IMG/VR virus record: IMGVR_UViG_3300010148_000024
Span: 1-45,362 of that record
Reading direction: 5' to 3' (one strand)
DNA length: 45,362 bases
From: a virus
Made by a program: the position numbers and the translations under genes. Positions 6,690-45,362 of this stretch are shown here, piece by piece. Each line of letters starts with the position of its first letter. The first letter of the stretch is position 1. Under the pieces are notes generated by a model that saw nothing but the letters and a program-made list of their open reading frames with translations, had not been told where the DNA came from and did not search any database.

Positions 6690-7072
6690 TGGCAGACGAT
6701 AAAGAATTGACCGGCAATCAAAAGAAACTTGATACAGATGGCGATGGCAAAATTAGCGGCGATGATTTCAAGGCTCTTAGGTCAAAAAACAAAAAAAGCA
6801 AAGGGCTGAATAAGGCTTTAGATGCTGGATGGTCTATGATAAAAGACGATAGGGAATTTGGCGAACCATACGATAGTGACTTCACAGAAACATTGACAGA
6901 CGAACAATTACAAGAACGCTTGATGTCTCTAATGCCACGACCACATTCAAACAGGGTTGATTGCGCTAATTGCGGTAATATTCCGATGACAAAAAAAGCA
7001 AGAGTAGCAACCGGCGGCGTTGAACCATATTACGAATGCCGTCGATGCGGCAATTCAGTGCGGGTGATGTAA
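6689..7072 (+). CDS. EF-hand plus tag peptide plus zinc-ribbon protein
   Basis: A 127-residue protein with three separable elements. Residues 15-26 form a canonical EF-hand-type calcium loop (D15, D17, D19, K21, S23, D26 in the ligand positions; DTDGDGKISGDD). Residues 41-54 (NKALDAGWSMIKDD) are a copy of the recurring AxxAWxxMK peptide found in several other genes here. Residues 92-120 are a zinc ribbon (C92xxC95, C117xxC120). The start codon overlaps the previous stop (TAATG). The combination suggests a small metal-binding adaptor, possibly virion-associated, but no enzyme activity is visible. Confidence 0.85.
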   Translation: MADDKELTGNQKKLDTDGDGKISGDDFKALRSKNKKSKGLNKALDAGWSMIKDDREFGEPYDSDFTETLTDEQLQERLMSLMPRPHSNRVDCANCGNIPMTKKARVATGGVEPYYECRRCGNSVRVM

Positions 7073-7398
7073 TGAGTGATGAAACAGAACAAGTAGAATT
7101 ACTCAAAGAGATGGTTCAAGAATTGCGAACCCTCCGAGAACGCATTGATGTGTTGGAAAAAGAAAACACAGTCATGCAAAAAGCCGTTGAAGACCCAGAA
7201 ACGCTAATGAAGCGTTATGGCTGGATTAAATCAACAACACCACATGCCGACGAAACATACGATCCTTTGAATCGTGATGCTGGCTCGGAATTATCCTCAT
7301 CCACTGGCCCATTTTCAGGCAGTGGCGAATTATTCACTAAATCTCGTTATGAGGAATTAGAGGATTGGAAACAAGCAGAAAAGCAGGTGAATGGATAA
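7072..7398 (+). CDS. Small coiled-coil protein
   Basis: A 108-residue protein. ATG 7072 is preferred over an in-frame ATG at 7036, because it overlaps the previous stop by one base (TAATG) and has GCGGGTGATG just upstream. Residues 5-45 are Glu/Leu/Lys-rich with heptad spacing, a probable coiled coil. Residues 46-108 are polar and contain a Ser/Gly-rich segment. Its own stop again overlaps the following ATG by one base. No domain is recognised; it is probably an assembly factor or minor structural protein by position. Confidence 0.75.
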   Translation: MSDETEQVELLKEMVQELRTLRERIDVLEKENTVMQKAVEDPETLMKRYGWIKSTTPHADETYDPLNRDAGSELSSSTGPFSGSGELFTKSRYEELEDWKQAEKQVNG

Positions 7399-8039
7399 TG
7401 CCACAGTGGTTCGACCCAATGAAAAATACGCCCGAAGGTGATTTGCTTGCTCATGTCCGTGAATTAGAAGCGGCTCTTATCAAAGGCGAGTCAAAGTCTC
7501 AATATATTTGCGACGGATGCGGCAAAACCGATCCTGCTGGCCTTGAGCCTTCAGGAAAATGTGTTGAATGTAAAACCGGTCAAAAGACCGACAAGAAAAT
7601 AATGGAGGGCGAAGGACATTATGATAAGAAAAAATCAAATGATTTGACTTCTCAAATTCTTGCCGAACATGGAATCATTGTCAAATACGAACAAGAAAAG
7701 AGCGTAGAAAACCAAGTGCCTCAATTTGTAAATGCAAAGACCGGCGACCGTGTTCAAGGATATGGGACAAATCAAATGCGACCCGCCATTACGGACACAC
7801 CTAAAAAGACTACAATTAGCGAAGTGTATAAAATGCCTGCTGTATCTCAAACAGGATACGATGCAAAAGCATCTTCGCTTCACATGCACCTAAATGACGG
7901 CGGAGTGAACAAGAATCATCCTAATCGCGCACCTATCGAAGAATCATTAGGCAATATAAAGAAAGCAAGCGGTGAAGGCCAAATGGGTATTGTATCGGAA
8001 ATTGCCGATATGCTTGAAAAAGTCTATGACCGCCTATGA
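7398..8039 (+). CDS. Zinc-ribbon protein, head module
   Basis: A 213-residue protein starting at ATG 7398 (TAATG overlap with the upstream gene; AGGTGA upstream). The N-terminal helix (residues 15-32) is followed by a zinc ribbon with C38xxC41 and C55xxC58. The rest is hydrophilic, Lys/Asn/Thr-rich, with a short C-terminal helix. An in-frame start at 7365 exists but would overlap the upstream gene more deeply. Function unknown; it belongs to the large group of Cys-pair proteins in this genome. Confidence 0.8.
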   Translation: MPQWFDPMKNTPEGDLLAHVRELEAALIKGESKSQYICDGCGKTDPAGLEPSGKCVECKTGQKTDKKIMEGEGHYDKKKSNDLTSQILAEHGIIVKYEQEKSVENQVPQFVNAKTGDRVQGYGTNQMRPAITDTPKKTTISEVYKMPAVSQTGYDAKASSLHMHLNDGGVNKNHPNRAPIEESLGNIKKASGEGQMGIVSEIADMLEKVYDRL

Positions 8040-8050
8040 GGGGGTTTTAG

Positions 8051-11000
8051 ATGAGTGATTTATCGAGAAAAAGAACTGATGCGGTAATCGCAACTTTGCT
8101 CGACGCAGATTATGATTTTAGCGAATATATCTCAATAGCAAAACAATCAGAAAACTCTTTTGATATGATTTTGCCTCAATTGATTGAGGATAAAATAGAT
8201 CAGCCGTATAGAATGAGAGATTTGGAGTCTCCTATGAGCGTTGCCTCAATGACTATTGGTTCGCCGTATATGGCGGGTCAAACTAAGGTATCGACAAATA
8301 TGATGGAGGACTGGCCGATGGCTGATGCTTCAAATCCTTACGGCCACCATCATCCTTTATGCTTGAAATCAGGCACTTGTCCTTTACTGCATGGAGGGCA
8401 ATATGGAGAACCTGAATACGCACATCACCTTATTGAATTCAGTAAATTATTGAAAGAACATGCTTTGCATGAAAAGTCTTTATCACATTTACATCGGAAT
8501 TCGCCGGAATACGGTAACTCGCCTATGTCTATGCACGATTTATACCAAAAAGACCGTAATAGAAGCGCATTTATGGATGAAGGCGAATGGCTTGAAGAAA
8601 AAAGACAAGAATTTATGACTTCATTTGGAATGCTGTCTTACTTGTTTGGCCTTGATTGGAATACACCAGCACATAGAGATGAGTTTGGAGACATTTTACA
8701 AAAAATGAGTGCCGAAGAGTCCAAGGATTCTCCAAATACAAAGGCCATGATTAACAAATTACAAGAAAAATCAGGAATTACATGGGATCGTGCTTTGCGT
8801 TCATGGAAAGGTCGGTTCACGCCGTTGGCTGAATGGTGGACTCGCCCTGCTGATCGTCATGGCCCCGTTTCAAGTGCAAATTTGGGAGATTTAGACAATC
8901 ATTATACCGGCGCATGGGATAGCGAAAATAAAAAGTCGTTGAATCATCACTGGTGGTTGCCCTTTTTGCATTGGGGTGGTGTTGGTCGTTCTAAGGATTC
9001 ATTGAAAGACTTACTAAAGCAATCATATCCGGCTGTATTTAATGGAGGATGGGTTGAACAAGAATTGGTAGATTCGGTATTTGAAAAATTAGACCAATCT
9101 TTGCATCATAATAGCCACTTTCCGAATGCGGCGACTCAAACTGGCTCGCCAGCCCTTACAGGAGGGACTAATTCAGACCGATATACCCGTAAGAGAGGGA
9201 ATTGGTCGGCGGTATCAAATCACGCACACCTTCACCCAAGCGAGGTAAAGGGTCAAGGTGGTAGAATGACTGTGCCATCCGATGCTTTGCTTATGTCCTC
9301 TTTGGGGAGGGCTATGGCGGCACATACTGATGTTGGCAATCCAAAAAGAGGTATTTATCGAGAAGACCACCCATCGTCGGTATCTGATTATTGGAAATTG
9401 CATAATGCTCATTTCAAAGACGCTGATATGGCACTTGGCGACAACATATCAAAAGTAGTTGAGCAAGTCATAAAGCAATTTGGGCCGGAGGTCTTAACTG
9501 GAACTGATATTGAGTCTAATACAATTGCGAGGGGCAACTTACAACAAATTGCTCAAGCGGCAAACATGGCGGCAATGAGAGTAGAGAATAAATCTCAAAA
9601 CGGCAACGGGCAAATTATTCAACCAGTATCCCCTATGGCTCAATCTACTATGCCACCAACATATTTGGCAGGCAACAATGATGTATGGGGCCATGAAATG
9701 CCCGCTACGCTGGCATGGAGGTTTGACCCTGAACAAAACGGATTGCGATTTGATTTGAAGGAGACTCCTTTCAAAACATTACAAAGAACTGTGCATGAAA
9801 ACCACATTCCTTTGCCATCCATGCTGGATGCTGAAATACAACCAAAAGAAAGAGATGTTTATGCTATGTCGGCAACAAACCCATACGGCCATTCTCATTT
9901 AGTAAGTGGAGATTTGATTAAAGCGGATGATTATGAACCAACTGGTGTTTTCAAGACAATGATTGAGCCAGCGCATACAATTTATGATTTAGGAGATATT
10001 GCTTCTTTGAAAGGATTTAGCGGAGGTTGGGCTGTTCAAAAAATGCCTAAAGGAAAGCGACAAATAGTTGAAAAGAAGGGCAAGCGAGTATCTCCTATGT
10101 CTTTGTCGAGTAAAATAAAAACCGACTTGAAGAAAATACAAGGCGATGCTATTTTTGACGCTTATGTTGATGGCGACACTATGGTTGCTGTGGATTTACT
10201 TTTGCATAAAGGAACGGATTTACACTTAGAACCACTTGAAGATCGTTTAGATGCTTTGAGAACCCTGTATGACAGCACAGACCATTTGCATTTTCCTTCG
10301 CCAAATAATTACAATTCAGCCGATAACGATGGCTTAGAAAAAACGGTTTTGTCGTTAAAGGAGAAAGGCGGTAATTTGCTATTGCGGGATTTGACTTCAA
10401 CTTTTATCAAAGGCCGTTCTGTTCATCCAAAATGGATTCGCTTTGTTGATAAAGAAAACATTTCAAAGCAATACCCAACCACGCCTCATATCAAAGTGAT
10501 ACATAATGACATTACTTTGCATTATCCTGAAATTTTATCGCCAGTTTTTATTAAAGGAGAATATGATGGCAAAGGGTATGATGTAGAGTCTATTGAATGT
10601 GAATTGCCTTCGTTGGTGAAACACGCTTCACATCAAATGCCTCTTTGGGGGCCGGTGGCATTATCTCTTTTGAAAGAAGGTGCGGCTGTTGGTGGCGGTA
10701 GCGTCGGTGGCGGCAGTAGTGGCGGAGGTTCTTCTCTTTCATCGAATAGTGCTGGAACGCATAGTCCATTACACAGTGTCGTAAGAAGGAAAAAACGAAG
10801 AAAATTCAAAACAATCAAATCCATTATACTTCGCGCACCAGCGATAACTGGCGACGAAAAAAAGGGAGATAATGTAGATCGAACTATGAAACAAACTCGG
10901 AGATATATTAGGGATGAATCTAAATCAATGACTACATCTGAATTATGTAGTGCCGTAAAAAATCTAAGCCCAAAAATGCTTGAAAACTTTGGTAATGAAT

Positions 11001-11395
11001 ATGGGATTGAAGAAGATGATGGCAAGTGGACTGTAAATGAAGCAATTGACGATGACATTATAGAGAATTTCGTATATCCTCGGATGAATAGTGCATCGCC
11101 TGATGGCGGCGCATGGTCTGGTATGCAGGCCGATTTGACCGCACCGCGAGGGCCAACAGAATTGACCGATGAAGAAAACACTACCTTTGCCGACCCTAAA
11201 AACCGTGACCTTGAAGATGAAGAACAAGAGCCAATACTCAATTTAACAATACAAGAAAAGGATGTTGGCACTGCCGAACTTGAAGTGGGCGGAGAAAGGG
11301 CCGTTCTCCGTTATCCAGAAAAAACCCCAAAAGAAATAGCAAATGAGCAAGACATAGAGCCTGCTTCAAGGTCTGAACCACAACGAATTGCTTAA
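8051..11395 (+). CDS. Large head-module protein with degenerate ligase-like (nucleotidyltransferase) domain
   Basis: A 1114-residue protein, much longer than its neighbours, starting at ATG 8051 after GAGGGGGTTTTAG. The first 620 residues are not recognised but are rich in His and Trp. Residues about 630-800 follow the order of an ATP-dependent DNA/RNA ligase adenylation domain: W660AVQKMPKGKR (motif I-like, K664 the candidate lysine, but the usual KxDG aspartate is not kept), D699AIFDAYVDGD, a motif III-like segment V712AVDLLLHKGTDLHLEPLEDR, then G774NLLLRD and HPKWIRF (motif IV/V-like; the motif IV glutamate is shifted or lost). Residues 880-896 are a Gly/Ser linker, followed by a basic patch (RRKKRRKFK) and an acidic C-terminus. 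I infer a diverged, perhaps inactive, nucleotidyltransferase fold embedded in a structural or head-associated protein. Confidence 0.8.
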   Translation: MSDLSRKRTDAVIATLLDADYDFSEYISIAKQSENSFDMILPQLIEDKIDQPYRMRDLESPMSVASMTIGSPYMAGQTKVSTNMMEDWPMADASNPYGHHHPLCLKSGTCPLLHGGQYGEPEYAHHLIEFSKLLKEHALHEKSLSHLHRNSPEYGNSPMSMHDLYQKDRNRSAFMDEGEWLEEKRQEFMTSFGMLSYLFGLDWNTPAHRDEFGDILQKMSAEESKDSPNTKAMINKLQEKSGITWDRALRSWKGRFTPLAEWWTRPADRHGPVSSANLGDLDNHYTGAWDSENKKSLNHHWWLPFLHWGGVGRSKDSLKDLLKQSYPAVFNGGWVEQELVDSVFEKLDQSLHHNSHFPNAATQTGSPALTGGTNSDRYTRKRGNWSAVSNHAHLHPSEVKGQGGRMTVPSDALLMSSLGRAMAAHTDVGNPKRGIYREDHPSSVSDYWKLHNAHFKDADMALGDNISKVVEQVIKQFGPEVLTGTDIESNTIARGNLQQIAQAANMAAMRVENKSQNGNGQIIQPVSPMAQSTMPPTYLAGNNDVWGHEMPATLAWRFDPEQNGLRFDLKETPFKTLQRTVHENHIPLPSMLDAEIQPKERDVYAMSATNPYGHSHLVSGDLIKADDYEPTGVFKTMIEPAHTIYDLGDIASLKGFSGGWAVQKMPKGKRQIVEKKGKRVSPMSLSSKIKTDLKKIQGDAIFDAYVDGDTMVAVDLLLHKGTDLHLEPLEDRLDALRTLYDSTDHLHFPSPNNYNSADNDGLEKTVLSLKEKGGNLLLRDLTSTFIKGRSVHPKWIRFVDKENISKQYPTTPHIKVIHNDITLHYPEILSPVFIKGEYDGKGYDVESIECELPSLVKHASHQMPLWGPVALSLLKEGAAVGGGSVGGGSSGGGSSLSSNSAGTHSPLHSVVRRKKRRKFKTIKSIILRAPAITGDEKKGDNVDRTMKQTRRYIRDESKSMTTSELCSAVKNLSPKMLENFGNEYGIEEDDGKWTVNEAIDDDIIENFVYPRMNSASPDGGAWSGMQADLTAPRGPTELTDEENTTFADPKNRDLEDEEQEPILNLTIQEKDVGTAELEVGGERAVLRYPEKTPKEIANEQDIEPASRSEPQRIA

Positions 11396-11411
11396 TTGGA
11401 TTGCCAAATCA

Positions 11412-11420
11412 TTCATATAC
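11412..11420 (+). promoter_or_regulatory. TATA-like box upstream of protease gene
   Basis: The 48-base gap before the protease gene contains TTCATATAC centred about 28 bases upstream of ATG 11444. No Shine-Dalgarno sequence precedes that ATG, unlike almost all other genes here. This spacing fits an archaeal promoter producing a leaderless mRNA. If the host were bacterial the box would have no such meaning. Confidence 0.35.
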
Positions 11421-11443
11421 CTTGACATGAAATCCTTCGGTTC

Positions 11444-12829
11444 ATGCAAGCGCAATCAACTGTCGGTTTCTCCGCAATTGGTTCCGACTTTGTTTTGAAG
11501 TCGGCTGATGGCGCAGACTTGTTCGTTGCTGGTTACGCATCAGTTGATATGGTCGATAAGCAAGGTGATAGAATCCCTGTATCGGCTCTAAAGAAGGCTT
11601 TTAGTAAATTTATGAACAATAAAGCATTCCGCAATGTTCAACTCGCCCACAGTGGCATTCAAGTCGGAGAGGTAGTAAATAGTTACACCGATTCTCAAAA
11701 CCGTGTGTGGAAATCTGAAGTTGATGATCATGGGCTGTTCGTAGTATGTAAAATCCGTGACGATATTCAAAAAGCAAGAGAAGTCCAAAAGCAAGTTCGT
11801 GATGGCGAACTACGCTCATTTTCTATTGGCGGGCAGGCGTTGTTCCGTGTTACCAAAACAACCCCTGAACTCGGAACTCACCGAGAGATTACAGACCTTG
11901 AACTCCATGAAATAACACTGTGTAAGAAGGGCATTAACCCTGAATCAAATTACACAATTCTAAAAATGGATGATGAGGATGATACAATGACAAACGCAGA
12001 AACACTGAATGAAATTCGCAACGGCCTAAGCCGTGTTCTAAGCCACCTCGACGGTGATGAAATCGTCAAGGGAGATTATATGGATAAGAACATGACTTGC
12101 TCTATGTGTAAAGGAGATGAAGCCGGTTGCGAAAATTGTTCACCAAAAGAAACAAAAAAGAGTGATAACATGTCTGGAAATGAAAACAACGCAATGGCCT
12201 ATATTGATACCTTAGAAAAGTTCGCACACGAAGCAGGTGTAAATCTCGATGAAGTCCGAACACACTTTGGACTTGAAAAAGCATACATGCAAGAAGGCTC
12301 CGGCGGATACTCTCACCGAGGCCAAGGCGATGAATACGGTTCTGGGGAGGATGCAACTGAACCAACATACCCAACTCTACCTTCTCCAAGTGGCAACCAA
12401 ACTGTCATCAAAACCAATGTTCCTTCGATGGGCTACAATGCACCATCTGGCAACAAGAATGTGATTAAGGGCGAAGACTTGACCCCTGCCGCACTTGAGC
12501 GTGGATACAACGCATACGCCGCAATCCGTGACGAACAATCTCTCAAGGGACTCGTTGAAAAAGAATGGAAAGAACGCTACGAAGCAGAAACCCTTCAAGC
12601 ATTGGAAATCCAAAAGCAATCCGACTTCGGAGGCCAAATTGCGGCTCTACGAAACGAGATTCAATCACTACGAACCGAAAACTCCGACCTTCAAAAGTCG
12701 GCAACTCCAACTCCAACTGAAACCACTGTAAGAGTCCCTTCTCACGAAGAATTCAATGCAATGGGTTCAGGGATTGACGGATGGCGAGCCGCAGAAGACC
12801 TTGCCCGACGCGCACTGCGGGGCGAGTAA
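11444..12829 (+). CDS. HK97-type prohead protease fused to scaffold-like region
   Basis: A 461-residue protein. Residues 1-175 match the HK97-like prohead serine protease family: an N-terminal segment with D-x-x-G-D-R, the catalytic-type histidine at H69 (QLAHSG), the LRSFSIGG serine motif (S127 the likely nucleophile) and the LELHEITLC segment (E156). Residues 218-231 hold four cysteines (C218, C221, C228, C231), a possible zinc knuckle. Residues 240-461 are polar, with a coiled coil near 385-430, typical of a scaffold or delta domain. Protease and scaffold are thus one gene, immediately before the capsid gene. From about base 12,000 onward codon use shifts towards C-ending codons, as in the capsid gene. 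Confidence 0.9.
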   Translation: MQAQSTVGFSAIGSDFVLKSADGADLFVAGYASVDMVDKQGDRIPVSALKKAFSKFMNNKAFRNVQLAHSGIQVGEVVNSYTDSQNRVWKSEVDDHGLFVVCKIRDDIQKAREVQKQVRDGELRSFSIGGQALFRVTKTTPELGTHREITDLELHEITLCKKGINPESNYTILKMDDEDDTMTNAETLNEIRNGLSRVLSHLDGDEIVKGDYMDKNMTCSMCKGDEAGCENCSPKETKKSDNMSGNENNAMAYIDTLEKFAHEAGVNLDEVRTHFGLEKAYMQEGSGGYSHRGQGDEYGSGEDATEPTYPTLPSPSGNQTVIKTNVPSMGYNAPSGNKNVIKGEDLTPAALERGYNAYAAIRDEQSLKGLVEKEWKERYEAETLQALEIQKQSDFGGQIAALRNEIQSLRTENSDLQKSATPTPTETTVRVPSHEEFNAMGSGIDGWRAAEDLARRALRGE

Positions 12830-12859
12830 ATCAAAAACTGATAAATGGAAGTGAATGAT

Positions 12860-14023
12860 ATGGGAAGCACAGGATACCTACGAACAATCGAAGACATGGA
12901 ACGCCTTTACTACGGTGCAGGCGCAGGCGCAAACGCATGGGCTTATTCGGGAACGGATTTGCTCAAGGCTGATTCGCCTTTGACATCATCAACTGCTGGA
13001 ACATACCAAGCGATTTTCGGTCGCAAAGTGTGGTCGCAATTGAACCAAGAATTTAACGCCTTTTCAATTCTACCTAAGAAGCCTTGGGAAAAGAGTGGAT
13101 GGCGTGTAGTTACTGCAAAGCCGGACTTTGGAAAGGGCGGCGGTGTTGCTGAAAACGGAACACTACCGGAAACCTCCAAGCCTTCTTTTGAGCATGTTTC
13201 AACCAAGCCAATGACTGTTGCCCACACCTTCGACTTGTCGGAGACTGCAATGTTCCTCGCTGATAAAGACGATGGACTTGGCGATGCAAGAGCCGTTATG
13301 AAAATGGAAATGGCAAAGCATCACGCTGAACACATTAACCGAATGCTTCTTGAGAATGTCGATACCGTCTCTGGAAACGGCTTTGAATCTATTGACCGTT
13401 GCACTTCTTCATCTTTCACTGAAAGCGCAACTGATTTCGTTGATGTCATTACAGATCACAACCAATACAGCATCACCCGAAACGGTGCTGGTGCAGGTTC
13501 TCGCCAATGGTATGACGCAAATGTAGATGCAGGGGCGGCAGGTGCAAACCGAGCATTGTCCCTCAACATCATTGATGGAATGTTCCGAGAAGTCTGGGAG
13601 CGCGGTGGCCAGCCAAAGGTCATCCTCACTGGATACGATACTTTGGAAAAAATCCAACAACTTCTACAACCTCAACAGCGTTTCACTGAAATGAAGCGTG
13701 TGGTTCCCGGCGTAAATGGTGTCAAGGGTGTTCCCGGCATGGAGGCCGGATTCGTCGTTGCTACTTACAACGGTGTTCCTATCATTCCTTCAAAGGATGT
13801 TGAAAACGAATCTGGTGGCGCAATGTCCCGCATGTATTTCCTCGATACGGACTACATGTATTTCTGCACTGCGAAACCAACTCTTTACCACGAAAGCGGA
13901 ATTGAAACCGGAGATCCATTCGGTATCAACCGACTCGGACAAATGGGATTGTTTCATACAATGGGCGATCTATGGCAACTCTTCTACGGCGCACACGGCA
14001 AGGTTCGTGACATCACCGCTTGA
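12860..14023 (+). CDS. Major capsid protein, HK97-fold type
   Basis: A 387-residue protein directly after the protease-scaffold gene, the standard position of the major capsid protein. The N-terminal region, the E-loop-like segment with Gly-rich KGGGVAENGTLPE (about residues 90-103) and the long helix containing AVMKMEMAKHHAEHINR (spine-helix-like) agree with the HK97 fold. ATG 12860 is chosen because GGAAGTGAATGAT directly precedes it; the in-frame ATG at 12845 lies on that ribosome-binding site. Codon use is richer in C-ending Leu, Ile and Val codons than in flanking genes, as expected for a very highly expressed protein. Confidence 0.9.
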   Translation: MGSTGYLRTIEDMERLYYGAGAGANAWAYSGTDLLKADSPLTSSTAGTYQAIFGRKVWSQLNQEFNAFSILPKKPWEKSGWRVVTAKPDFGKGGGVAENGTLPETSKPSFEHVSTKPMTVAHTFDLSETAMFLADKDDGLGDARAVMKMEMAKHHAEHINRMLLENVDTVSGNGFESIDRCTSSSFTESATDFVDVITDHNQYSITRNGAGAGSRQWYDANVDAGAAGANRALSLNIIDGMFREVWERGGQPKVILTGYDTLEKIQQLLQPQQRFTEMKRVVPGVNGVKGVPGMEAGFVVATYNGVPIIPSKDVENESGGAMSRMYFLDTDYMYFCTAKPTLYHESGIETGDPFGINRLGQMGLFHTMGDLWQLFYGAHGKVRDITA

Positions 14024-15860: not shown

Positions 15861-16175
15861 ATGTCAAGTCTCCAATTACAAGATATTGACCTTGAAACGG
15901 CTCTTGAAATACAAAAGCGACGGAACACCCGTATGCTTGAAGTAGCAACAAACGAGGGTTCTATTGCTGAATCGGAATCTCCTTTTAGCAGTCGGAATCT
16001 AAAGAATGCGGCAAACAAGAAAGTTGAAATAAAAAAGCGTGAACGCTTCGATATTCAAAACATTGGTTCTGGGACTCGTTGCCATTCATGCGGTATGCTA
16101 CACTTTTGTTGGACTCCAAGGTGTGCGGTGTGTTCAGCACCTATGCACTTTAACATGGGGGGGCATCATAAATGA
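15861..16175 (+). CDS. Small zinc-ribbon protein
   Basis: A 104-residue protein starting at ATG 15861, preceded by AGAGGTG at the right distance; an in-frame GTG at 15834 overlaps the previous gene and is less likely. Residues 1-30 are a charged helix. Residues 74-91 carry C74xxC77 and C88xxC91 (plus C83), a zinc ribbon, ending in a His/Gly-rich tail. Its stop overlaps the next start (ATGA), so the two are translationally coupled. The role is unknown. Confidence 0.75.
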   Translation: MSSLQLQDIDLETALEIQKRRNTRMLEVATNEGSIAESESPFSSRNLKNAANKKVEIKKRERFDIQNIGSGTRCHSCGMLHFCWTPRCAVCSAPMHFNMGGHHK

Positions 16176-16687
16176 GCAATAAAGCCTTTGAAGTCGGAAT
16201 AGATATATTGAAAGCACAGCCATGTCCCGTATGCGGGGCGATTGGTGCTGAAATCGCTATCGGCTGTCCTGTTCAAGCACCTGCGGTTGTTTGCCCTATT
16301 CGTCGTAAAGAAACGGCTCGATCCCGTCGCACTGAACTATCTCGCATTGGAGGGCAAAGCGACGAATCTCCTATGACTCTTGAAGAGATGAGGGCGGCAT
16401 TCATTCATAACAAGTCGGATGATAAAGACTGGTATGAAGACGCGTCGAGAGATAAAGAATTGGAATCAACACCAAATAAGAAAAAGAAAAATTATGATTA
16501 CCATAATTCTCCACCGGCTATAACCCCTGATGACAAAAAAAGAATGGAGGGGATTTCAACCTCTCCACGCTCGTATAAGCCCCGTATGCCTTATCCTCCA
16601 ATGAAATCTTCCTCTTTAATCGACCGAGCGAGAAAGGCAAACAAAGAAAATCCAAGACCGGGCAGTGCTGATTACAAGAAAGAATGA
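16172..16687 (+). CDS. Zinc-finger protein with N-terminal tag-like peptide
   Basis: A 171-residue protein overlapping the previous gene by 4 bases (ATGA). Residues 4-15 (KAFEVGIDILKA) resemble the recurring AF-D-x-A-W-x-x-M-K peptide, though Trp is replaced by Ile. Residues 18-41 contain C18PVCGAIGAEI...C32...C41, close to the CPxCGA zinc-binding pattern common in phage proteins. The rest is very hydrophilic, Lys/Pro/Ser-rich and probably disordered. Function not recognised. Confidence 0.75.
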   Translation: MSNKAFEVGIDILKAQPCPVCGAIGAEIAIGCPVQAPAVVCPIRRKETARSRRTELSRIGGQSDESPMTLEEMRAAFIHNKSDDKDWYEDASRDKELESTPNKKKKNYDYHNSPPAITPDDKKRMEGISTSPRSYKPRMPYPPMKSSSLIDRARKANKENPRPGSADYKKE

Positions 16688-21268: not shown

Positions 21269-21652
21269 ATGCGATTAAGCGGAACAGTGACAGTAAATGG
21301 GGTTCGCGTAGCCCTCGATTGGACTATATTAGGTAATAGAATTGAAGCAGGGCCGGGATTGCCATGCAATGATGTGCGTTTGCATATACCAATGGCAGAC
21401 TTAAGTAATACATCTGGAGGGGTTTTAGATGTCGAGTCTTCAAATTCTTATTCCGATCTCAATGTGACTGAATTACGGGTTTTGTTGAGGCAAAGAGGAT
21501 TGGCTGTATCAGGGACAAAGGATGAACTAATCGCTCGATTGATTGCAGATGATGAAGCAACCGAAGAGTCCGAAGATGATTTAGAAGATGATTTAGAAGA
21601 CGATGCCGGAGATTTAATCGAAGGAGAGAGCGAAGATGGCCCTGAAGAATGA
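21269..21652 (+). CDS. Small protein with SAP-like domain and acidic tail
   Basis: A 127-residue protein. Residues 1-50 are beta-rich. Residues 61-92 (YSDLNVTELRVLLRQRGLAVSG then TKDELIARL) fit the SAP helix-linker-helix pattern, a short nucleic-acid-binding motif. The last 35 residues are almost purely Asp/Glu. It overlaps the tail chaperone gene by 17 bases. Its SAP-like part resembles that of the protein at 14468. Its role is unknown; the acidic tail may compete with or modulate DNA binding. Confidence 0.78.
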   Translation: MRLSGTVTVNGVRVALDWTILGNRIEAGPGLPCNDVRLHIPMADLSNTSGGVLDVESSNSYSDLNVTELRVLLRQRGLAVSGTKDELIARLIADDEATEESEDDLEDDLEDDAGDLIEGESEDGPEE

Positions 21653-21995
21653 TTTTTTACTTTCAAACGAATCTGTTCGCCACGAATTAGAGACTCCGAA
21701 AGGCACTTTGGTTGTTTATGTCAAGCCGATTTCATGGATTCAACAGCAAGAAGCATTATCGAGGTTCGTTGATTTTTCTGGCAGTGACGATAGCGGTAAT
21801 GTTGCTCCAAAGATAGATTTGGGCGGTTACTGGCGTTATGTATTTACTAATTGCATCGACAAAACCGAGCCTAAAATGTCAAAAGAAGACTTGTTAAAAT
21901 TACACCCTGATGTGGGTTCGGTTATTCAAAAGGTGTTGCCAAGTATATTTGAGATAATTGGTTCATTTGCAGGCGGCGACTCCCCTTTGGCTTAA
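21636..21995 (+). CDS. Tail assembly chaperone, short form (gpG-like)
   Basis: A 119-residue protein starting at ATG 21636 (GGAGAG upstream), inside the end of the SAP gene. It is mixed helical with YVKPISWIQQQEALSRFVDF and a C-terminal helix. It precedes the tape measure and ends near a slippery heptamer, which together are the signature of lambda gpG-type tail assembly chaperones that coat the tape measure during tail assembly. The stop TAA is at 21993-21995, only 4 bases after the heptamer. The protein is present in the virion assembly pathway, not usually in the finished virion. Confidence 0.8.
   Translation: MALKNDFLLSNESVRHELETPKGTLVVYVKPISWIQQQEALSRFVDFSGSDDSGNVAPKIDLGGYWRYVFTNCIDKTEPKMSKEDLLKLHPDVGSVIQKVLPSIFEIIGSFAGGDSPLA
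21983..21989 (+). promoter_or_regulatory. Probable -1 ribosomal frameshift site CCCTTTG
   Basis: In the zero frame the bases read TCC CCT TTG GCT TAA, so the heptamer C CCT TTG fits X XXY YYZ. Slippage by one base gives CCC and TTT, then continues GGC TTA AGC into the open downstream frame. A 10-base palindrome GGCTTAAGCC overlaps its last base, and TGATGA (22000-22005) can pair with TCATCA (22017-22022), which could act as a weak stimulator. Confidence 0.8.
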
Positions 21996-22348
21996 GCCAT
22001 GATGATTTGAAGGCCGTCATCAATGGCGAAATGCCTAAGCATATTGGGCCTACTGAACAATCTCTTTTGGCCTTTCAAACTATCACATTTGTTCTTGGAA
22101 CCCATTTCAATTGCCCGCCGCACATGTGGGATAATCAGCCTGTTGAGCGAGTGATGTTGGATTATCATTTTGTCACCATCGCCAATGAATTGAAAAACGA
22201 AGCAATGGAAAAGGTGCAAAAAGACGCTCAACGCAAAAGCAATATAAGCGGTGGTGCTAAAAACGGGAGGCCACTACGAACTACAAGCGACAGCGCGAGC
22301 CTCGGAGATTTCTTCGAGCGTATGAATCAGGATATAAGGGAGGAATAA
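21989..22348 (+). CDS. Tail assembly chaperone, frameshifted extension (gpT-like)
   Basis: This frame is open from 21953 to 22348 but has no ATG near its beginning and no ribosome-binding site before TTG 22007. It is most simply read as the C-terminal extension of the gene at 21636, made by -1 slippage at CCCTTTG. The fusion would have about 237 residues, 118 from the first part and 119 from this part (entering at GLSHDDLKAVING). The extension contains a helix-rich segment (NQPVERVMLDYHFVTIANELKNEAME) and a Ser/Arg-rich tail. In lambda-type phages the GT fusion is made at a few per cent and links chaperone to tape measure and tube. Confidence 0.8.
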   Translation, partial: GLSHDDLKAVINGEMPKHIGPTEQSLLAFQTITFVLGTHFNCPPHMWDNQPVERVMLDYHFVTIANELKNEAMEKVQKDAQRKSNISGGAKNGRPLRTTSDSASLGDFFERMNQDIREE

Positions 22349-22352
22349 GAAA

Positions 22353-23846
22353 ATGGCCGACCAATCCTACACTGATTACCTCAACATGTTTGCTAAAGCA
22401 AATGTGCCAATGAAAAAGCATACAAAGGGTGTGCAATTACTTGCTTTGAAATACAAGATACTGCATAAAACCTTTGGGCCATTTATGGATTTATGGCTAC
22501 AAATGCACCAAGGCGTTCAAACAGTTGGAGAAGCATTGGATACTCTTTCAAAGCCAGTAGAAGACACGGCGGAGGGCATTGATGCTTTAACAAAAGCAAC
22601 TGGCGCAACAGTATTGAATTTCCGTAGCCTAATACTCTCGATTACGATCATAATTGGCATAATCATGGCCTTTGTCGGTATTGTATTTTTAATGGCGGGT
22701 TCTTTTGCGAACATGGATTCGGTGATGCCGGGAACGACGGATATGATCGATGGGCTAAAAAACGCCTTGGCATCTGTTATTGAAGCAGGCAAAGGGGTTG
22801 TTGAAACCATTATGAGTCTTGACTTTTCACCCATACTCGGCCCACTTGGAATGTTAATTGGCGGCATTGTTAAGTTCATGGCCTTGGTTCTGCAAGTATA
22901 TGCCGTGATTGCTGTTGGATACATGGAGATTATTACAATGATGGGCGAAGGAGGACAACTGCAAGCAATAATTGATACGGTTGCAGGGGTTTTTGCCAGT
23001 CTTGTTTTTGGTTTTGGCTTCATCATGTCTCAACTTGAAGCGGTGGGAGTAACCGGCGGTTCTACGCTGTCGGCAATACAATCCTTTGTCGATACTTTTG
23101 TTGCATTCTTATTTAGTTCAGGAATTATTGATTTTGTTGTTGAATTGTTTTCGTTTGTAGCAGAATTGACTGGTTTCATTATAAAAATCTCGGCTGTGAT
23201 TATTGGCCTTTTGATTCGATATTTGGCCTTCTTTTATAGCAAAACAGAAGGATATTGGAAGGCTCTTGCAGGCGCAATAGGAATCATAGTAGTTCTCGTT
23301 ATTGGCGTAGTAAGGGTTTTCATGGCTTATTGGCGCGGTTTAGTGGCACTTTTTAGTGGTGATTTTGATGGGGCTTTGAAGCACTTTGAATCTATCACTG
23401 GGATTGCTTCTAAAACCTTTAATAAAGTGTCAAGTCTCTTTGAAGGAATGGTAGATAATTTGATTCGTTTTCTTCAACCATTGTATGATATGATTGAATT
23501 TGTTGTTGATGGAATTGGCGGTGTTCTTGGAGGGGCAAAGGACATAGGAGGGGGCATAATGTCTGGCCTTGGATTCTCGGAGGGGGGAATTGCTTCGGGG
23601 CCAAGTAGCGGTTATCCAGCCACCCTTCACGGAACAGAAGCAGTTGTTCCTTTGCCAAACGGTCGAACAATACCGGTTGAAATCAAAGGGGCTATGAGAG
23701 GCAGTGGTGGTGGCGATAATATCACCGTTAATATCAATGTAAGCGGCGGCGGTAATGCTAATGATATTGCCAAGAAAGTAAGCCAAGAAGTCGCACGAAC
23801 ATTCCGCAATCGTTCTCGACAAAGTGGATTTGGGAGGGGTATTTGA
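22353..23846 (+). CDS. Tape measure protein
   Basis: A 497-residue protein next to the chaperone genes. The N-terminal 80 residues are helical. Residues 85-330 contain several long hydrophobic segments (for example LILSITIIIGIIMAFVGIVF near 92-115), typical of tape measure proteins that may insert into or cross the membrane during DNA ejection. The C-terminus has the family-typical EGGIASGPSSGYPATLHGTE and AVVPLPNGRTIPVEI segments. At about 1.5 Angstrom per residue it would predict a tail of roughly 75 nm, short in contrast to the very large tip proteins downstream. ATG 22353 follows GGGAGGAA. Confidence 0.88.
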   Translation: MADQSYTDYLNMFAKANVPMKKHTKGVQLLALKYKILHKTFGPFMDLWLQMHQGVQTVGEALDTLSKPVEDTAEGIDALTKATGATVLNFRSLILSITIIIGIIMAFVGIVFLMAGSFANMDSVMPGTTDMIDGLKNALASVIEAGKGVVETIMSLDFSPILGPLGMLIGGIVKFMALVLQVYAVIAVGYMEIITMMGEGGQLQAIIDTVAGVFASLVFGFGFIMSQLEAVGVTGGSTLSAIQSFVDTFVAFLFSSGIIDFVVELFSFVAELTGFIIKISAVIIGLLIRYLAFFYSKTEGYWKALAGAIGIIVVLVIGVVRVFMAYWRGLVALFSGDFDGALKHFESITGIASKTFNKVSSLFEGMVDNLIRFLQPLYDMIEFVVDGIGGVLGGAKDIGGGIMSGLGFSEGGIASGPSSGYPATLHGTEAVVPLPNGRTIPVEIKGAMRGSGGGDNITVNINVSGGGNANDIAKKVSQEVARTFRNRSRQSGFGRGI

Positions 23847-32700: not shown

Positions 32701-35700
32701 ATGACTGAAACAACCATTTACCGAAAGAAAATTTATCCCTCAAAAAACACTTCTTTGGGAAGCACGACATCTGGTTATCCGCTTTCTGGTTTTTTAGCGA
32801 TGCACTTTACATATCCCGACCTTGAATATGCGGATGACATCACTACATGGCAATATGGGACAAATACGAATAATTGGAAACAAGGTCTTCAAGTTATCAT
32901 AAAAACAAGTTTTGCCGATTCGGGGGTTCCCGTTCCGACCACTACAACTAATTTGCTTGGAATTGATTTAGCGGCGGCGGCCACTGCCTCTTCAATGTCG
33001 TTTGATTTAGGCACTGAAAGAGCAACTCGATACATTGCCGCCCAAATTAACGCTCATCAATCGCAACAACTCTCAACGACTGGCGCAACAAAATTGCTAA
33101 AAGCACGATATGTCCGAATGTCGAGTCGGCCTTCTTGGGATACTGATGCTCCGGTTCAAATATCGGCAACTCAAATTGTAGTCAAATTCACCGAACACAC
33201 TTTACTTGGTGGTCGCCATTTTGAGAGAGGCTATCCTTCTGATTTGCCCCAATCAGGAACAATTGTCGTTTTGGTGTCTGGCACTGAAACCACCTACAAT
33301 TATACCGCAATAAACGAGTATAATCAAAAAGGATATGCTATTTTGACTGTTTCGGGGTTGCCGGGTTATTCATCTACGGGTGTTCCGGCAAATTGGACTA
33401 CGGCTAAAATTACTGGCGAGCCGGAAAAACACACTATTGTATTTTCATGGAATCGAAACAGGACTGCCGAAGATGGCACTGCTACCGGATATGCTAATTT
33501 CAACGACGACATTTATTGGAGTCCAGCAAACATGGGGCCGGTGGTTCAAGGCGTTGGCGGCGTTCCTTTATGGAGATTGATTGCGAAGCCGATGGATGGC
33601 GGGAATATGGCTTTGCCATCGCCTCATCGAGTGTATAGAGGTGGAGGGGGCAAAGCAGGTGTCACCGAGGCAAGTGGGGGCGGCTATTGTCGCTTTTCTA
33701 TCGAAGGTCTAAATTCTTGTTATTCCCCTGCTGTCCCTGCACCAGATTACAACATTACAGAAGCAACTATTGAGGGGATTACCGAAGCCGGTCAAGCATT
33801 AGTCACTAATAACCAACCATTGCACATTGAACCTCTTGAATATGGTTCTACTATGCGGGCCAAAACATCAATTGTTCAATATGAAAATGGCTACACTTCA
33901 AATTTCAACAGTGTTGAAAATACAATTGGTTCTTCTGGCAATAAATTAGGTAATGCAAATGTGTTTCATGCCGATCCAACCAAAGACAAGGGCTTGAAAT
34001 CAACAGTAACTAACGAAATGTATGCTCGACCATTCCGTTTAACTGATACAATAAATACGAACACTGTTGAAGACATGTTAATTTCAAATGAAGAAAAGGT
34101 CTTTGATGACATGGATGTTATTGACGATCAAGGCAATGTATTGACTTTACAAGGCGGCTCTCCATTCGGAACCGTAATCAAGGATTTTGCGGTGAAAACA
34201 AATCGTAAAAGAACCGATTCGACCGATGAAGCATTTGGCCCTTCGGCCCCCAATGGTTTGTTTGAACCAAACATGGAAATCCAATTACCCGACGACAAAG
34301 AGATACCCGGAGAAATCTTTGTTCGCACAGGCCACGACAGGGTTCAAGCATGGTCGAATAAGTCATGGGGCATGGGTGGCTTGTCGGCCCCCGACCCTCG
34401 ACCGGCTGGTGTCCCTGAAGCAAGCAATGAGCCATCACAGTTTGATACGCATGATAGAATGCTGGTATTTCACTGTAAAAGAATCCGTCATGGTTATGGA
34501 GAGTTTGTATCTGGCATTGAATACAATACTGAATCCAGTTTTGCAGTAATACCAAGCGGTAGCACCAGATTCTTTACAGCGCATAGGGCGAGCGACCATG
34601 TAGAACGAGGTTCGGTTCTAAATCAAACAACAAACGGCACATTATCTACAACTAAATATCCACATCATCGGATTCGCTTTGGCCGTCAAGGTCACTCTCT
34701 TGTAACTCCAATGGGTCATCGAGGGACACCAATGGCGCATAGGCGGCAATTGCATCGTTCATTCGGTTCATCTTATTCGCTTATGTTTGAAGCAAAGACC
34801 GAACATAAGCACTTTGGTTTTGGTAATGGTGAATCTTCAAATTCGGCTACCAGATTCAATTTAGACACTTTAGAAACTAAAGGGGTTGCGGGATATACAA
34901 CGAATGCAGGTTCATTTTCGGGTGATGGGTTGCCAACAACTGAACACCTCGTCGGTTCTCGTTTGCATAATCATAAATCTCACTATTCTTCTATAACGCC
35001 AAGAACAAATTTAGATTATTTGATTGCGCCGGGACAAAACCATACTAAGGTTGAAGGTTCGCCTGAAAAGGTATCTCAAGGAACATTGGTTGAAACTGCA
35101 ATCAGCAGTGTAAATCGGCCAACGCATTTGACTTTAACCGATGCTTTGTCTTTAACTAATAGAGCAAATACAGCAAGCGAATTCATGGTAAATGGATTTT
35201 TGTTGGGTAATCCTTCTATGATTGGCGGCAGACCTGAACCTCCGACTGCAACATTTTATACAACTACTGCTGGAAGTGTTACTGTTTGGAGTGTAAGAGG
35301 GGCAAATGAAGGTGTTTTAGTGCCTCGGTCGGCAACAGAATTGGCAACAACTCCGCCATTGATATTACATGACCCAGATTCGCTTAATATGGCGGCTGTT
35401 CCTATTTATGGCGGCTCATCATACACCGTTTCAGAGCATACCGACATGGGGCTAATGAAAGACTCCGACACCAATACTGGCGCAACCCCCGACGCGTTCC
35501 TTTGCACATGGTTGGCTGAATACAGTCACCCTGCACTTTTGGGAACTTCAAGAGAACATTACCTTACATTCCGTTATCGAGAATCGGGAATGCCAAGAGC
35601 AACAAATTACCCTGCAACAAACGGCTTGTTCTTGAGAAATTATTCAAATCAATCTACTGCTGGACTTGCCGTAAATGCAAAACCATTTGAGATGCTTTAT

Positions 35701-40233: not shown

Positions 40234-40262
40234 TATGGGCGCATTCAATGAAGCATGGAGTA
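40227..40262 (+). repeat. Repeat copy 1 (ribosome-binding site and tag-coding 5' end)
   Basis: The sequence GGTGAAATGATATGGGC followed by (G/A)CATT(C/T)AATGAAGCATGGAGT begins the gene at 40235. The same sequence with two silent or conservative changes begins the gene at 40505. The repeated part includes the ribosome-binding site and the codons for the tag peptide. Confidence 0.75.
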
Positions 40263-40498
40263 TAATGAAGCGAGATAAGGGATGGATTGCACCAGATGGT
40301 TCTAATTGGAAACACCGGATGGATCCTATGAATTGCCCCTTATGTAGAGGCCCAATGCAATATCAAGACGGATATATCGGTTCAAGTGGTCGTTTTGTCG
40401 AACCTGCGTATATGTGTATGGATCCCCAAGAACCTTATTGCGAAGTAAGAAGGCATGATGTGAAAAGTTCATTGAAGCCGCAAACAATCAAAAGGTGA
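40235..40498 (+). CDS. Tagged zinc-ribbon protein 1 of tandem pair
   Basis: An 87-residue protein with AGGTGA 6 bases before ATG 40235. Residues 3-13 (AFNEAWSIMKR) are a full copy of the recurring AF-N-x-A-W-x-x-M-K peptide. Cys residues at 34, 37, 61 and 69 form a zinc-ribbon-like set. The 5' end is nearly identical to that of the following gene, including the ribosome-binding site, indicating tandem duplication of a tag-containing start followed by divergence. No enzyme motif is seen. Confidence 0.82.
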   Translation: MGAFNEAWSIMKRDKGWIAPDGSNWKHRMDPMNCPLCRGPMQYQDGYIGSSGRFVEPAYMCMDPQEPYCEVRRHDVKSSLKPQTIKR

Positions 40499-40532
40499 AA
40501 TGATATGGGCACATTTAATGAAGCATGGAGTG
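40495..40532 (+). repeat. Repeat copy 2 (ribosome-binding site and tag-coding 5' end)
   Basis: The second copy of the GGTGAAATGATATGGGC...AATGAAGCATGGAGT block, at the start of the gene at 40505. The coding sequences downstream are not alike beyond the two Cys pairs. Confidence 0.75.
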
Positions 40533-40717
40533 TCGCTAAAGAAAAGCCAAAGTGCAAATATTGTAATGGGCCAATGACGCGTTATGAGAATGTAAAAAAC
40601 GGAAAAGTGAGGCATCAATGCAGTAACCACTGCTACCGTTCACAACGAGAGTATCAACGCAATTTGTATCCTACGCGCAATCACCTCCCGCATGGGATGA
40701 AAGGAGGCTACCACTGA
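40505..40717 (+). CDS. Tagged zinc-ribbon protein 2 of tandem pair
   Basis: A 70-residue basic protein. Residues 3-12 (TFNEAWSVAK) are a copy of the tag peptide. Cys 17, 20, 39 and 43 make a zinc finger with a Cys-x2-Cys and Cys-x3-Cys layout. The rest is Arg/His/Tyr-rich. It shares its ribosome-binding site and first 10 codons with the preceding gene. Its stop overlaps the next ATG by one base (TGATG). Probable small nucleic-acid- or protein-binding accessory protein. Confidence 0.8.
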   Translation: MGTFNEAWSVAKEKPKCKYCNGPMTRYENVKNGKVRHQCSNHCYRSQREYQRNLYPTRNHLPHGMKGGYH

Positions 40718-42552: not shown

Positions 42553-43074
42553 ATGAAATGCCCTGATTGCTCCAACCGCTTAATACCTCATGGTCGAGGA
42601 AAAAATACTTCACTTCTTTGTAATCAATGTGGTAAAAAACACGCACTTGGTTCGTTAAACAAGTCTGTTTTTTGGAAAACGGAGATTAACCGTTTGAAAA
42701 AGCCAACACCAGATGCTAAAGCGGGCCGCCATGTTTGCACTGAATGTCATGGCGAAGGTAAATCGCCTAAATGTCCTTCATGCAAGTATTCAAAGACAAT
42801 ACACGGCAAACAACAAGTGTCAAAGCCCTCTCAACGCAACAACAAGAATTACACTATTCTTCGTTCTAATGAAGCATTTGATGTTGCATGGGATATGATG
42901 AAAAGCGTCGATAAGGGCGACAACGCCCCCACCAATCCCGGTCTTTGGTCGCAAGCCAAATCAAAAGCCCGTTCTAAATTCAAAGTCTATCCCTCCGCTT
43001 ATGCAAATGCTTGGGCTTCTAAGTGGTATAAAGGAAAGGGCGGCGGCTGGAAAAAGAAGGGGAAAAAGAAATGA
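42553..43074 (+). CDS. Double zinc-ribbon protein with tag and YPSAYANAWASKWY domain
   Basis: A 173-residue, highly basic protein. It has two zinc ribbons (C3, C6, C23, C26 and C62, C65, C74, C77), then the tag peptide at residues 108-117 (AFDVAWDMMK). The C-terminal domain (residues 130-167) contains KFKVYPSAYANAWASKWYK and GGGWKKKGKKK, a small basic domain that recurs in marine tailed viruses as a conserved domain of unknown function. The order suggests a modular adaptor protein. ATG 42553 follows GAGATGATTTG. Its stop overlaps the next start (ATGA). Confidence 0.85.
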   Translation: MKCPDCSNRLIPHGRGKNTSLLCNQCGKKHALGSLNKSVFWKTEINRLKKPTPDAKAGRHVCTECHGEGKSPKCPSCKYSKTIHGKQQVSKPSQRNNKNYTILRSNEAFDVAWDMMKSVDKGDNAPTNPGLWSQAKSKARSKFKVYPSAYANAWASKWYKGKGGGWKKKGKKK

Positions 43075-43694
43075 TTCAATCCCCTGCCTCGGATCTTCTT
43101 ACTAAGGACTTAAGGCGTTGGTTCAAAGAGAAATGGGTCGATGTTTCACGAAAAGACAAGGATGGTAAGCATCCACCCTGCGGTCGTGGTGAAGCGAAAA
43201 CAAACAGTAAGGGATACCCTAAGTGCCGACCTTCAAAAAAAGTAAGTAGCGAAACACCTAAAACAACAAGAGGTATGAGCGCAGATGACAAGAAGGCGGC
43301 TACGCGCCGAAAGCGTTCAAAGCCTCAAGGTGTCGGAGGGAAACCAACTATGGTGAAATCATGCAATTGCAGTAATTGTAATCTTTTAACAAAAGCATTC
43401 TTAATGCGAGAAGACATAATTAAAGCAAAAGACAAGCCTTTTCACGGCTACAATCCAAACAAACATAGCCGAAAAGGTGGATTGAATGCTAAGGGCAGGG
43501 CTAAGTTCAAGCGTGAAGAAGGGGCTAATCTAAAACCACCAGTCACTACCAAACCGAGTAAATTGAAAGCCGGTTCAAAGAAAGCAAAGCGTCGAAAGTC
43601 ATTTTGCGCCAGAATGGGAGGGGTCAAAGGGCCGACCAGCAAGGGCGGTAAATTGACTCCTAAAGGTGCGGCATTGAAAAGGTGGAATTGCTAA
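43071..43694 (+). CDS. Basic Cys-containing protein, marine-phage conserved type
   Basis: A 207-residue, very Lys/Arg-rich protein overlapping the previous gene by 4 bases. The N-terminal section (WFKEKWVDVSRKDKDGKHPP, then CGRGEAK and YPKCRPS) and the C-terminal section (RKSFCARMGGVKGP, then LTPKGAALKRWNC) are sequence types found together or separately in many marine tailed viruses, with no established function. Residues 98-103 contain Cys-x-Cys-x-x-Cys. The middle is low-complexity and basic. Nucleic-acid binding is plausible from composition. No catalytic motif. Confidence 0.8.
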   Translation: MIQSPASDLLTKDLRRWFKEKWVDVSRKDKDGKHPPCGRGEAKTNSKGYPKCRPSKKVSSETPKTTRGMSADDKKAATRRKRSKPQGVGGKPTMVKSCNCSNCNLLTKAFLMREDIIKAKDKPFHGYNPNKHSRKGGLNAKGRAKFKREEGANLKPPVTTKPSKLKAGSKKAKRRKSFCARMGGVKGPTSKGGKLTPKGAALKRWNC

Positions 43695-43710
43695 AGTGAG
43701 ATGATTTTAT

Positions 43711-44043
43711 ATGAATAAAGAAGAACCAACAGTATCAGTAGGCAATGAAACCATCGAAGTATCTATGATGATTGATGGAGAAAGAAAGCGAAAGAGATAT
43801 TCAGGCCATACCAAAGAAGAAGCGGTATCGGCGTTCAAAGAAGAATTTATGAGCGATTTGAAAAAAGCAGAAAAGAAAACATCATGTTGTTGCGGTGCAA
43901 CCAAAGAAACTCCTTGCGTTTGTATGCTCAAAGGAACTGAATGTTCTATGTCTAAACCAAAGTGCGCGTGTTATAGACTCCTTGACAAGCAAAAAGATGT
44001 CAAAAAGTCATTTGATGTTGGATGGTCTTTGATGAAAAGGTGA
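43711..44043 (+). CDS. Cys-rich protein with C-terminal tag
   Basis: A 110-residue protein with ATG 43711 after AAAGTGAGATGA. The N-terminal half is a small alpha/beta segment with many charges (SMMIDGERKRKRYSGHT). Residues 59-87 hold eight cysteines (59, 60, 61, 69, 71, 78, 85, 87), a dense metal-binding region. The last 11 residues (SFDVGWSLMKR) are a C-terminal copy of the tag peptide. Having the tag at the exact C-terminus contrasts with the N-terminal copies in other genes. Confidence 0.8.
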   Translation: MNKEEPTVSVGNETIEVSMMIDGERKRKRYSGHTKEEAVSAFKEEFMSDLKKAEKKTSCCCGATKETPCVCMLKGTECSMSKPKCACYRLLDKQKDVKKSFDVGWSLMKR

Positions 44044-44052
44044 TTGATTATA

Positions 44053-45362
44053 ATGGCCGCCTTCGATCAAGCATGGGGGTCGTTAAGGCCACACCTCATC
44101 CAAAAAGCGAGAGGTGGCATCAAAGCATTCCCTCCCGAACGCTTTGAAGAAATCATGCGGGATTACGAAGCAAATAGAGGCTCAATTATACCTGCGCCAA
44201 TGAAATACACTGGCAGTAAAGCGCAACCCCATTATATCGGCCCATTGCGTCGTGCTATGGCTCTAAACCCTTCTAAGAAAACCGGAGGGCGAAGGCGTAT
44301 GCTTGAACCTTTCATGGGGGCATTAAACGCATCAGCAAATGTTAATCCCGGTCAAAGAGCGTTGGTTGCGGATTACAATAGATTCATGCCCGAAGTCTTC
44401 AGGCGTATCCAAAACAATGACATGATTTTAGATATGGAGCCATTCATGCAAGATGGTGTCGTGCCTAAACAAACATATTATGAGGCAATCCGAGGCGCAG
44501 TTCCTAAAGGGCGGAGAACGAGAGAAAAGGATGGCTTCAATTCTACTTGGGATACATTGCTACCAAATTCTTTCAACGATTATCTCCGTAGAGAAAAAGA
44601 AGGAGAAGAATTGTCGGAACAAGAGGTGCGAGACATGCTGGAACAGTATGCTCGTTATCAAAGAATGGCATGGAGGGGAGATGCAAGGATGCCCCAAGGT
44701 TGGGCCAACCAAACCTCAAACGCACCTCTATTCAAATTCCCTGCTGGTTCAAAAATTGACTATGGCGTGAATGCGCCAGTGTATCGCAATTTTGATATTC
44801 GTTCTGGCATGGACTTTGCCGACTTCTTCAAATTAGGATTAGACCCCGATGACGATTTCTTGTTCCTCGATTCGCCTTATGCTGGCGGAGAGGGGGCAAA
44901 TTACGATGAGAATATGCCTTGGGAGGCTCAAGAATTGCTTGCCGAATTAGCAGGCGAACAAGCGGCGGAGGGTATGCCGGTAGTCGCAACCAACAATCCA
45001 ATTGTTGCACCGTTGTATGAAAAACAGGGATTCAAGACGCAATTATTAGGTCGGCCAGACAGATACCGCAATTACGACCAAAAGCAACCATTGGTGAAAC
45101 CAGAAGCGATAATGCACAATTTGGATGATTTCGATTGGTTTGAAAACCACCCTAACATGAAGTTAGCCAGTGACGATCCGTTTGAACAAGCATGGGGGTT
45201 AATCACCAAAGGTAAAGGCAAGTTCAAAGGATATTCAAAAAACACCATTAGCGACCGCCCAGTGAGGCAAGGAAAAGCAAAAGCGTGGGGAATTAGCCGA
45301 AAGGTGAAAAGAGGCCGCACAGCCCGCCGCTACAAGCGAAACAAGACAAGAGGGAATGTTCG
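44053..45362 (+). CDS. D12-class DNA adenine methylase, tagged at both ends, 3' end outside window
   Basis: A frame open from ATG 44053 (GGTGATTGATTATA upstream) to the window end, at least 436 residues. The D12-class N6-adenine methylase pattern is visible: M50KYTGSK (motif X-like), L84EPFMGA (motif I, SAM binding), A106DYN, and the catalytic motif IV at 273-276 as DSPY rather than the usual DPPY, then V310VATNNP. Between motif I and IV lies a charged helical insertion (about 130-265). Residues 3-10 (AFDQAWGS) and 375-383 (DPFEQAWGL) are tag copies at the N-terminal and near the C-terminal side of the core. The tail is very basic. It probably modifies viral DNA; the DSPY variation may affect activity. 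Confidence 0.85.
   Translation, partial: MAAFDQAWGSLRPHLIQKARGGIKAFPPERFEEIMRDYEANRGSIIPAPMKYTGSKAQPHYIGPLRRAMALNPSKKTGGRRRMLEPFMGALNASANVNPGQRALVADYNRFMPEVFRRIQNNDMILDMEPFMQDGVVPKQTYYEAIRGAVPKGRRTREKDGFNSTWDTLLPNSFNDYLRREKEGEELSEQEVRDMLEQYARYQRMAWRGDARMPQGWANQTSNAPLFKFPAGSKIDYGVNAPVYRNFDIRSGMDFADFFKLGLDPDDDFLFLDSPYAGGEGANYDENMPWEAQELLAELAGEQAAEGMPVVATNNPIVAPLYEKQGFKTQLLGRPDRYRNYDQKQPLVKPEAIMHNLDDFDWFENHPNMKLASDDPFEQAWGLITKGKGKFKGYSKNTISDRPVRQGKAKAWGISRKVKRGRTARRYKRNKTRGNV

Follow-up and report, generated by a model that had tools for sequence, protein, structure and literature searches.

What would make one short peptide recur in proteins that otherwise share no sequence? The question is raised by the IMG/VR virus record IMGVR_UViG_3300010148_000024, whose entire 45,362 bases, themselves a fragment, are called the window here. 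A sequence-only reading of the window had noticed a peptide of the type AFNEAWSIMK in many of its proteins and proposed that it is a docking tag recognized by one viral partner, for instance for packaging accessory proteins into the head. Our analysis indicates that this tag, MTAF[DE]xAWx[LVI]hK (h, hydrophobic), is probably a prohead-targeting (capsid-targeting) signal of magroviruses that would act like the capsid-targeting sequence (CTS) of phage T4. That the tag is real, acts at the protein level and is linked to the virion is well established.

To count copies, the strict pattern F[DEN]x[AG]Wxx[VMLIATF][KRNT] was used. The window contains seven strict copies, compared with 0.15 per shuffled proteome (Poisson probability about 3e-10), and all seven strong copies of the initial reading were found at their places. 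In the window and 14 relatives, which were read nearly whole, in pieces (15 records, 1229 open reading frames, 356,506 amino acids), the pattern occurred 138 times, with up to 16 copies in one record, compared with a mean of 0.5 (maximum 2) in shuffled proteins and three matches to the reversed pattern. The DNA form of the pattern gave about 127 matches in 25 of 29 related records and none with the reversed control, and the tag extends to more distant records, in which the capsid protein has 60-68% identity to the query. No strict copy was observed within the 100 kb read of HVTV-1, a distant annotated relative, and the motif strings were not found in the literature searched. The consensus spans 12 residues, M-T-A-F-[DE]-x-A-W-x-[LVI]-h-K; N-terminal copies read M-T-A, F, D or E, any residue, A, W, any residue, L, V or I, then V, L or A, and K. 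Once the tag was masked, the 136 tagged proteins fell into 78 unrelated clusters, which bears out the earlier view that the copies are not simple gene duplicates.

The residues that define the tag are retained in related viruses. In 111 pairs of homologues with a mean identity of 51% outside the tag, retention was 83% for F, 77% for A, 80% for W and 86% for K, compared with about 20% at the free positions. Among the kept F and K codons, about half were synonymously different. Where homologues fall outside the strict pattern, the tag position is often taken by a conservative variant, for example AFDTAFNLIK or AFDTTWDLLK, with W to F among the replacements. Since F, A, W and K are kept while synonymous sites vary freely, selection acts on the peptide, and a signal at the DNA or RNA level was rejected because of the synonymous change in conserved codons.

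The portal protein provides the strongest indication of what the tag does. Most relatives encode a portal with a C-terminal tail of about 100 residues, while in some the portal is about 490-560 residues long and a gene of its own, downstream, encodes the tail. Among 60 portal loci, all 19 separate tails were tagged, at the start or upstream of the tail, whereas none of the 41 fused tails was tagged at the junction. On the portal tree, which includes 14 distinct split portals, the state must have changed twice, as well-supported branches dictate in both cases, and the tag was kept in every split-portal descendant seen. From established portal architecture, the C-terminus of a portal should face the head interior. 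Most simply, the tag would stand in for the covalent link and bring the portal tail to the prohead. Because the tag accompanies the portal tail when this is split off, the head is favored over other tethering options. Both refuting conditions of the initial reading, background frequency in shuffled proteins and loss of the tag residues in relatives, proved false; together with this outcome, the comparison supports a docking tag for a viral partner. As a separate observation, some truncated portals (G018, L236, L019) end in an added zinc ribbon or another small domain in place of the tail, so that domains seem to be exchanged readily at the portal C-terminus.

The order of genes in the window is the end of a pre-terminase gene, the terminase large subunit, portal, S78 prohead protease, an HK97/SU10-type capsid protein, tail genes, a block of small genes and a D12-type methylase. 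The capsid protein has 137 relatives in the viral collection. It also has distant relatives in the haloviruses HCTV-1 and HVTV-1, and the terminase is likewise halovirus-like. The major capsid protein is 88% identical to a copy on a 106-kb contig (L283, CACGHY010000002.1) of the Poseidoniales single-cell assembly AG-422-I20. This assembly apparently represents an infected cell of an uncultured Poseidoniales archaeon and provides a host link for the virus group. Because its capsid relatives include both the haloviruses and this copy, the virus is, judged by sequence, a magrovirus or a close relation, and thus a tailed virus of Poseidoniales, archaea that are abundant in the ocean; the assignment rests on capsid and terminase matches and the host link.

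Pfam assigned few tagged proteins. It identified D12 methylases, DUF6321, GP88 and zinc ribbons among them, one protein resembles an ASCH domain below the cut-off, and HExxH-like motifs, noted by eye in several, are suggestive of peptidases. The profile of the tagged YHGT family, which includes the tag so that the tag neighborhood forms part of the match, matched RNA 2'-phosphotransferase (E-value 0.0017) and DarT (0.018), and Foldseek placed its predicted fold (pLDDT 73) closest to KptA/Tpt1 (KptA E-value 5.5e-4, probability 1.0). By profile and predicted fold, the YHGT family has an ADP-ribosyltransferase (ART) fold. Family A3, also tagged, carries the motifs VVKxP, DRxxxN and DxD; the best Foldseek matches of its model (pLDDT 61) are effector kinases, at E-values of 0.03 or worse, and a sequence search for this family returned nothing usable, only chance matches to myoglobin. 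Both models show the tag as a helix at the N-terminus, with modest confidence. Two large proteins with an internal tag (G002 32752-35088 and G025 10342-12489) belong to the largest tagged cluster, and the former has a GP88-like (PF17338) region after the tag.

A different partner would explain part of these data. The partner bound by the tag could lie outside the virion, for example a late transcription or replication complex or the virus-coded thermosome, and co-location with virion genes would then reflect late expression only. The cargo does include zinc ribbons, methylases and basic proteins, and record G002 codes for a Cpn60/TCP-1 chaperonin. However, in 20 records the strand of the capsid gene carries 141 copies in 1000 genes, whereas the other strand carries one in 434 (p about 2e-22), the lone copy being in G008. 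The other strand encodes PolB in G011, G015 and G019, and a UvrD-like helicase and the thermosome in G002. A non-virion partner also gives no reason why the portal tail should be tagged exactly when it is split off, and ART-like or kinase-like proteins would be unexpected partners in replication. We therefore regard this explanation as unlikely. The copies lie mostly in a block upstream of the terminase gene, and each of the 12 records whose late strand covers 16 kb or more there holds between 3 and 14 strict copies in that stretch. Records with few or no tags (G011, G015, G019, G009 and G018) were rejected as counter-examples, since they end at or near the terminase and do not contain the cargo block; they do not represent loss.

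The position of the tag within proteins bears on a second alternative, namely a gene-start cassette, that is, a DNA or expression leader or a recombination joint acquired by new genes in the block and devoid of a protein function. Most copies are indeed N-terminal (107 of 138), with MTA in front, in head-to-tail overlapping genes, and codons agree somewhat more often within a genome than between genomes (0.59 vs 0.50). Against a cassette, about half of the conserved F and K codons differ synonymously with the amino acids kept, replacements such as W to F are conservative, and 26-27 internal and five C-terminal copies occur in single proteins; we consider it very improbable. Downstream of 15 of the 27 internal copies lies a segment whose homologue, in other places, is the body of a separate protein tagged at its N-terminus; a few of these cases reflect the choice of start codon. 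By these homologies, the tag marks the start of modules, and over half of the internal copies are a second tagged module fused on. The initial description of copies at N-termini, at C-termini and in interiors thus holds for all three, with the qualification that the internal ones are mostly explained by such fusions.

Viruses often exploit short linear motifs of their hosts, and the tag might accordingly be recognized by a host protease, chaperone or localization system. In 60 genomes of the host's order, two matches were found outside the virus contig compared with two control matches, which is background, and in the infected single-cell genome the matches were confined to the virus contig. 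As host proteins lack the tag, a host-recognized motif is hard to credit. Chance similarity, or duplication of one protein family, is already refuted by 138 copies against 0.5 expected and by the 78 clusters that remain after masking.

A prohead-targeting signal would work as follows. The cargo-gene block would be expressed late in infection along with the genes for head and tail. The tag is probably a short amphipathic helix, one side of which is formed by F, A, W and the hydrophobic pair, and would dock to one head component, which may be the scaffold, the protease, the portal or the inner capsid, so that the docked cargo would be enclosed in the prohead. We infer that ART-like and kinase-like cargo could be ejected with the genome and act on the new host, while methylases and basic proteins may act on the genome. 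With rather less confidence, we also lean towards a modular virion cargo system, in which any late gene could pick up a 12-residue tag. The tag would mark effectors (ART-like, kinase-like, peptidase-like, methylase), a large set that changes rapidly, to be packaged and then injected into Poseidoniales, and it could stand in for a covalent link to the portal.

Several points weigh against targeting to the prohead. The split-portal result represents two independent events, not nineteen, and a p-value calculated from the table of loci overstates it. Tag copies can be C-terminal or internal, unlike in T4. The kinase-like assignment of family A3 is weak, and several cargo proteins, such as the zinc ribbons and the methylase, could equally act on DNA or transcription. 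Finally, cleavage of the tag by the prohead protease after its h-h-K, as suggested by the capsid protein, is unsupported because no conserved residue follows: the tag ends in a conserved K, and the next residue varies (M, A, E, S).

Among known systems, the CTS of T4 comes closest in its properties. Its first 10 residues are enough to have IPIII packaged, with positions 4 and 7 important for targeting and positions 8 and 10 for processing; another packaged protein, Alt, is an ADP-ribosyltransferase (PMC9026906). As in the T4 proteins IPI-IPIII and Alt, about 10-12 residues, N-terminal in 107 of the 138 copies, are carried by otherwise unrelated proteins (here 78 clusters), an ADP-ribosyltransferase is among the cargo, and the cargo repertoire varies between related viruses (PMC9026906). 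In contrast, the magrovirus tag belongs to another virus lineage with another family of prohead protease, reaches 16 strict copies per record, and is found internally and C-terminally as well. Since it is not strictly N-terminal, is followed by a variable residue and is likened to the T4 sequence by its properties, we do not class it as a T4-type CTS. Head-packaged ARTs and effectors fused to portal or MuF proteins (polyvalent proteins) have been widely proposed in phages, where structural proteins are believed to take such enzymes into the head with them (PMC9503650). In the magroviruses, however, the cargo genes are separate and the short tag seems to replace covalent fusion; only the portal tail exists in both states within one virus group. 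The cargo-loading peptides of encapsulins are likewise short and are thought to bind the inside of an HK97-fold shell, but they are mostly C-terminal and belong to cellular compartments. Secreted effectors share an N-terminal delivery domain, spread by fusion, on many unrelated effector domains; the magrovirus tag is far shorter and is tied to virion genes instead of a secretion system.

If the prohead-targeting role is correct, this would be the first capsid-targeting tag recognized in archaeal viruses, as far as the literature searched shows. The proteins that arrive with the genome could then be listed from sequence alone, a directly testable targeting peptide would be available to load proteins into the head of an archaeal virus, and effector delivery from the head would be suggested beyond T4-like and similar phages of bacteria.

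The copies in the window are listed in Table 1 together with the head genes concerned. Fusion explains both internal copies in its last genes: one precedes a phrog_27331 segment attached to the zinc-ribbon protein, the other the GKFKGYSKNTISDR domain attached to the methylase. The segment downstream of AFDVAWDMMK shares 87% identity with a G005 protein that stands alone with an N-terminal tag, and the GKFKGYSKNTISDR domain downstream of PFEQAWGLIT shares 73% with such a protein in G007. For the C-terminal copy, the Cys-rich module and its tag are followed by a further module in other records. The EF-hand matches of the protein at 6689-7072 are below Pfam cut-offs. Of the two weaker forms suggested initially, the one at 16184 is degenerate but partly kept in close relatives, while the copy at the end of the gene at 18309 was dropped because homologues do not keep it.

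Table 1. Tag copies and associated head features in the window (positions in nucleotides)
Feature	Position	Strand	Remarks
Portal C-terminal tail (start approximate), portal gene 4063-5841	5540..5841	+	Fused and untagged here; homologous tails separate and tagged in split-portal viruses
ALDAGWSMIK, within EF-hand-like protein 6689-7072	6815..6844	+	ALEIGWSVLK in 50%-identical L002 homologue
S78-family prohead protease	11444..12829	+	Pfam PF04586 and head maturation protease PHROGs; long C-terminal extension is a candidate scaffold region
Invariant DLLKAD, N-terminal arm of major capsid protein	12956..12973	+	Speculative candidate for a maturation site; has the h-h-K with which the tag ends
Degenerate tag AFEVGIDILK, N-terminus of gene 16172-16687	16184..16213	+	AFEVGMDLLK in L002; similar CPxC proteins of G002 and G010 with full tags
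AFNEAWSIMK, N-terminal tag of zinc-ribbon gene 40235-40498	40241..40270	+	AFEKAWGLLK in 63%-identical G008 homologue
TFNEAWSVAK, N-terminal tag of zinc-ribbon gene 40505-40717	40511..40540	+	
AFDVAWDMMK, internal, gene 42553-43074, between double zinc ribbon and phrog_27331 segment	42874..42903	+	
SFDVGWSLMK, C-terminal tag of Cys-rich gene 43711-44043	44008..44037	+	
AFDQAWGSLR, N-terminal tag of D12-type DNA adenine methylase 44053-45360 (runs off record)	44059..44088	+	
PFEQAWGLIT, internal, where methylase meets GKFKGYSKNTISDR domain	45178..45207	+	

The N-terminal arm of the capsid protein (12845-13000 in the window, and in relatives) carries an invariant G[ST][DE]LLK[AS]D after a more variable first stretch, and DLLKAD is partly aligned in HVTV-1. 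It is a matter of speculation that [DE]LLK[AS]D, which resembles the end of the tag, may be a site of the prohead protease and hint at a shared maturation site.

Immediately ahead of the terminase gene, several relatives have a gene for a long protein of low complexity that bears the tag at its N-terminus and ends in a conserved DNMSLLPTGW-like stretch (G002 21416-23158; G025 22224-23555). The gene at this place in the window (3-1394) is cut at its start, and the end at which a tag would stand thus lies outside the record. The window also encodes an untagged protein with DUF5872 and DUF6321 (43071-43694), whose DUF6321 relatives in G001, G002, G006, G010 and G014 bear an N-terminal tag or a close variant.
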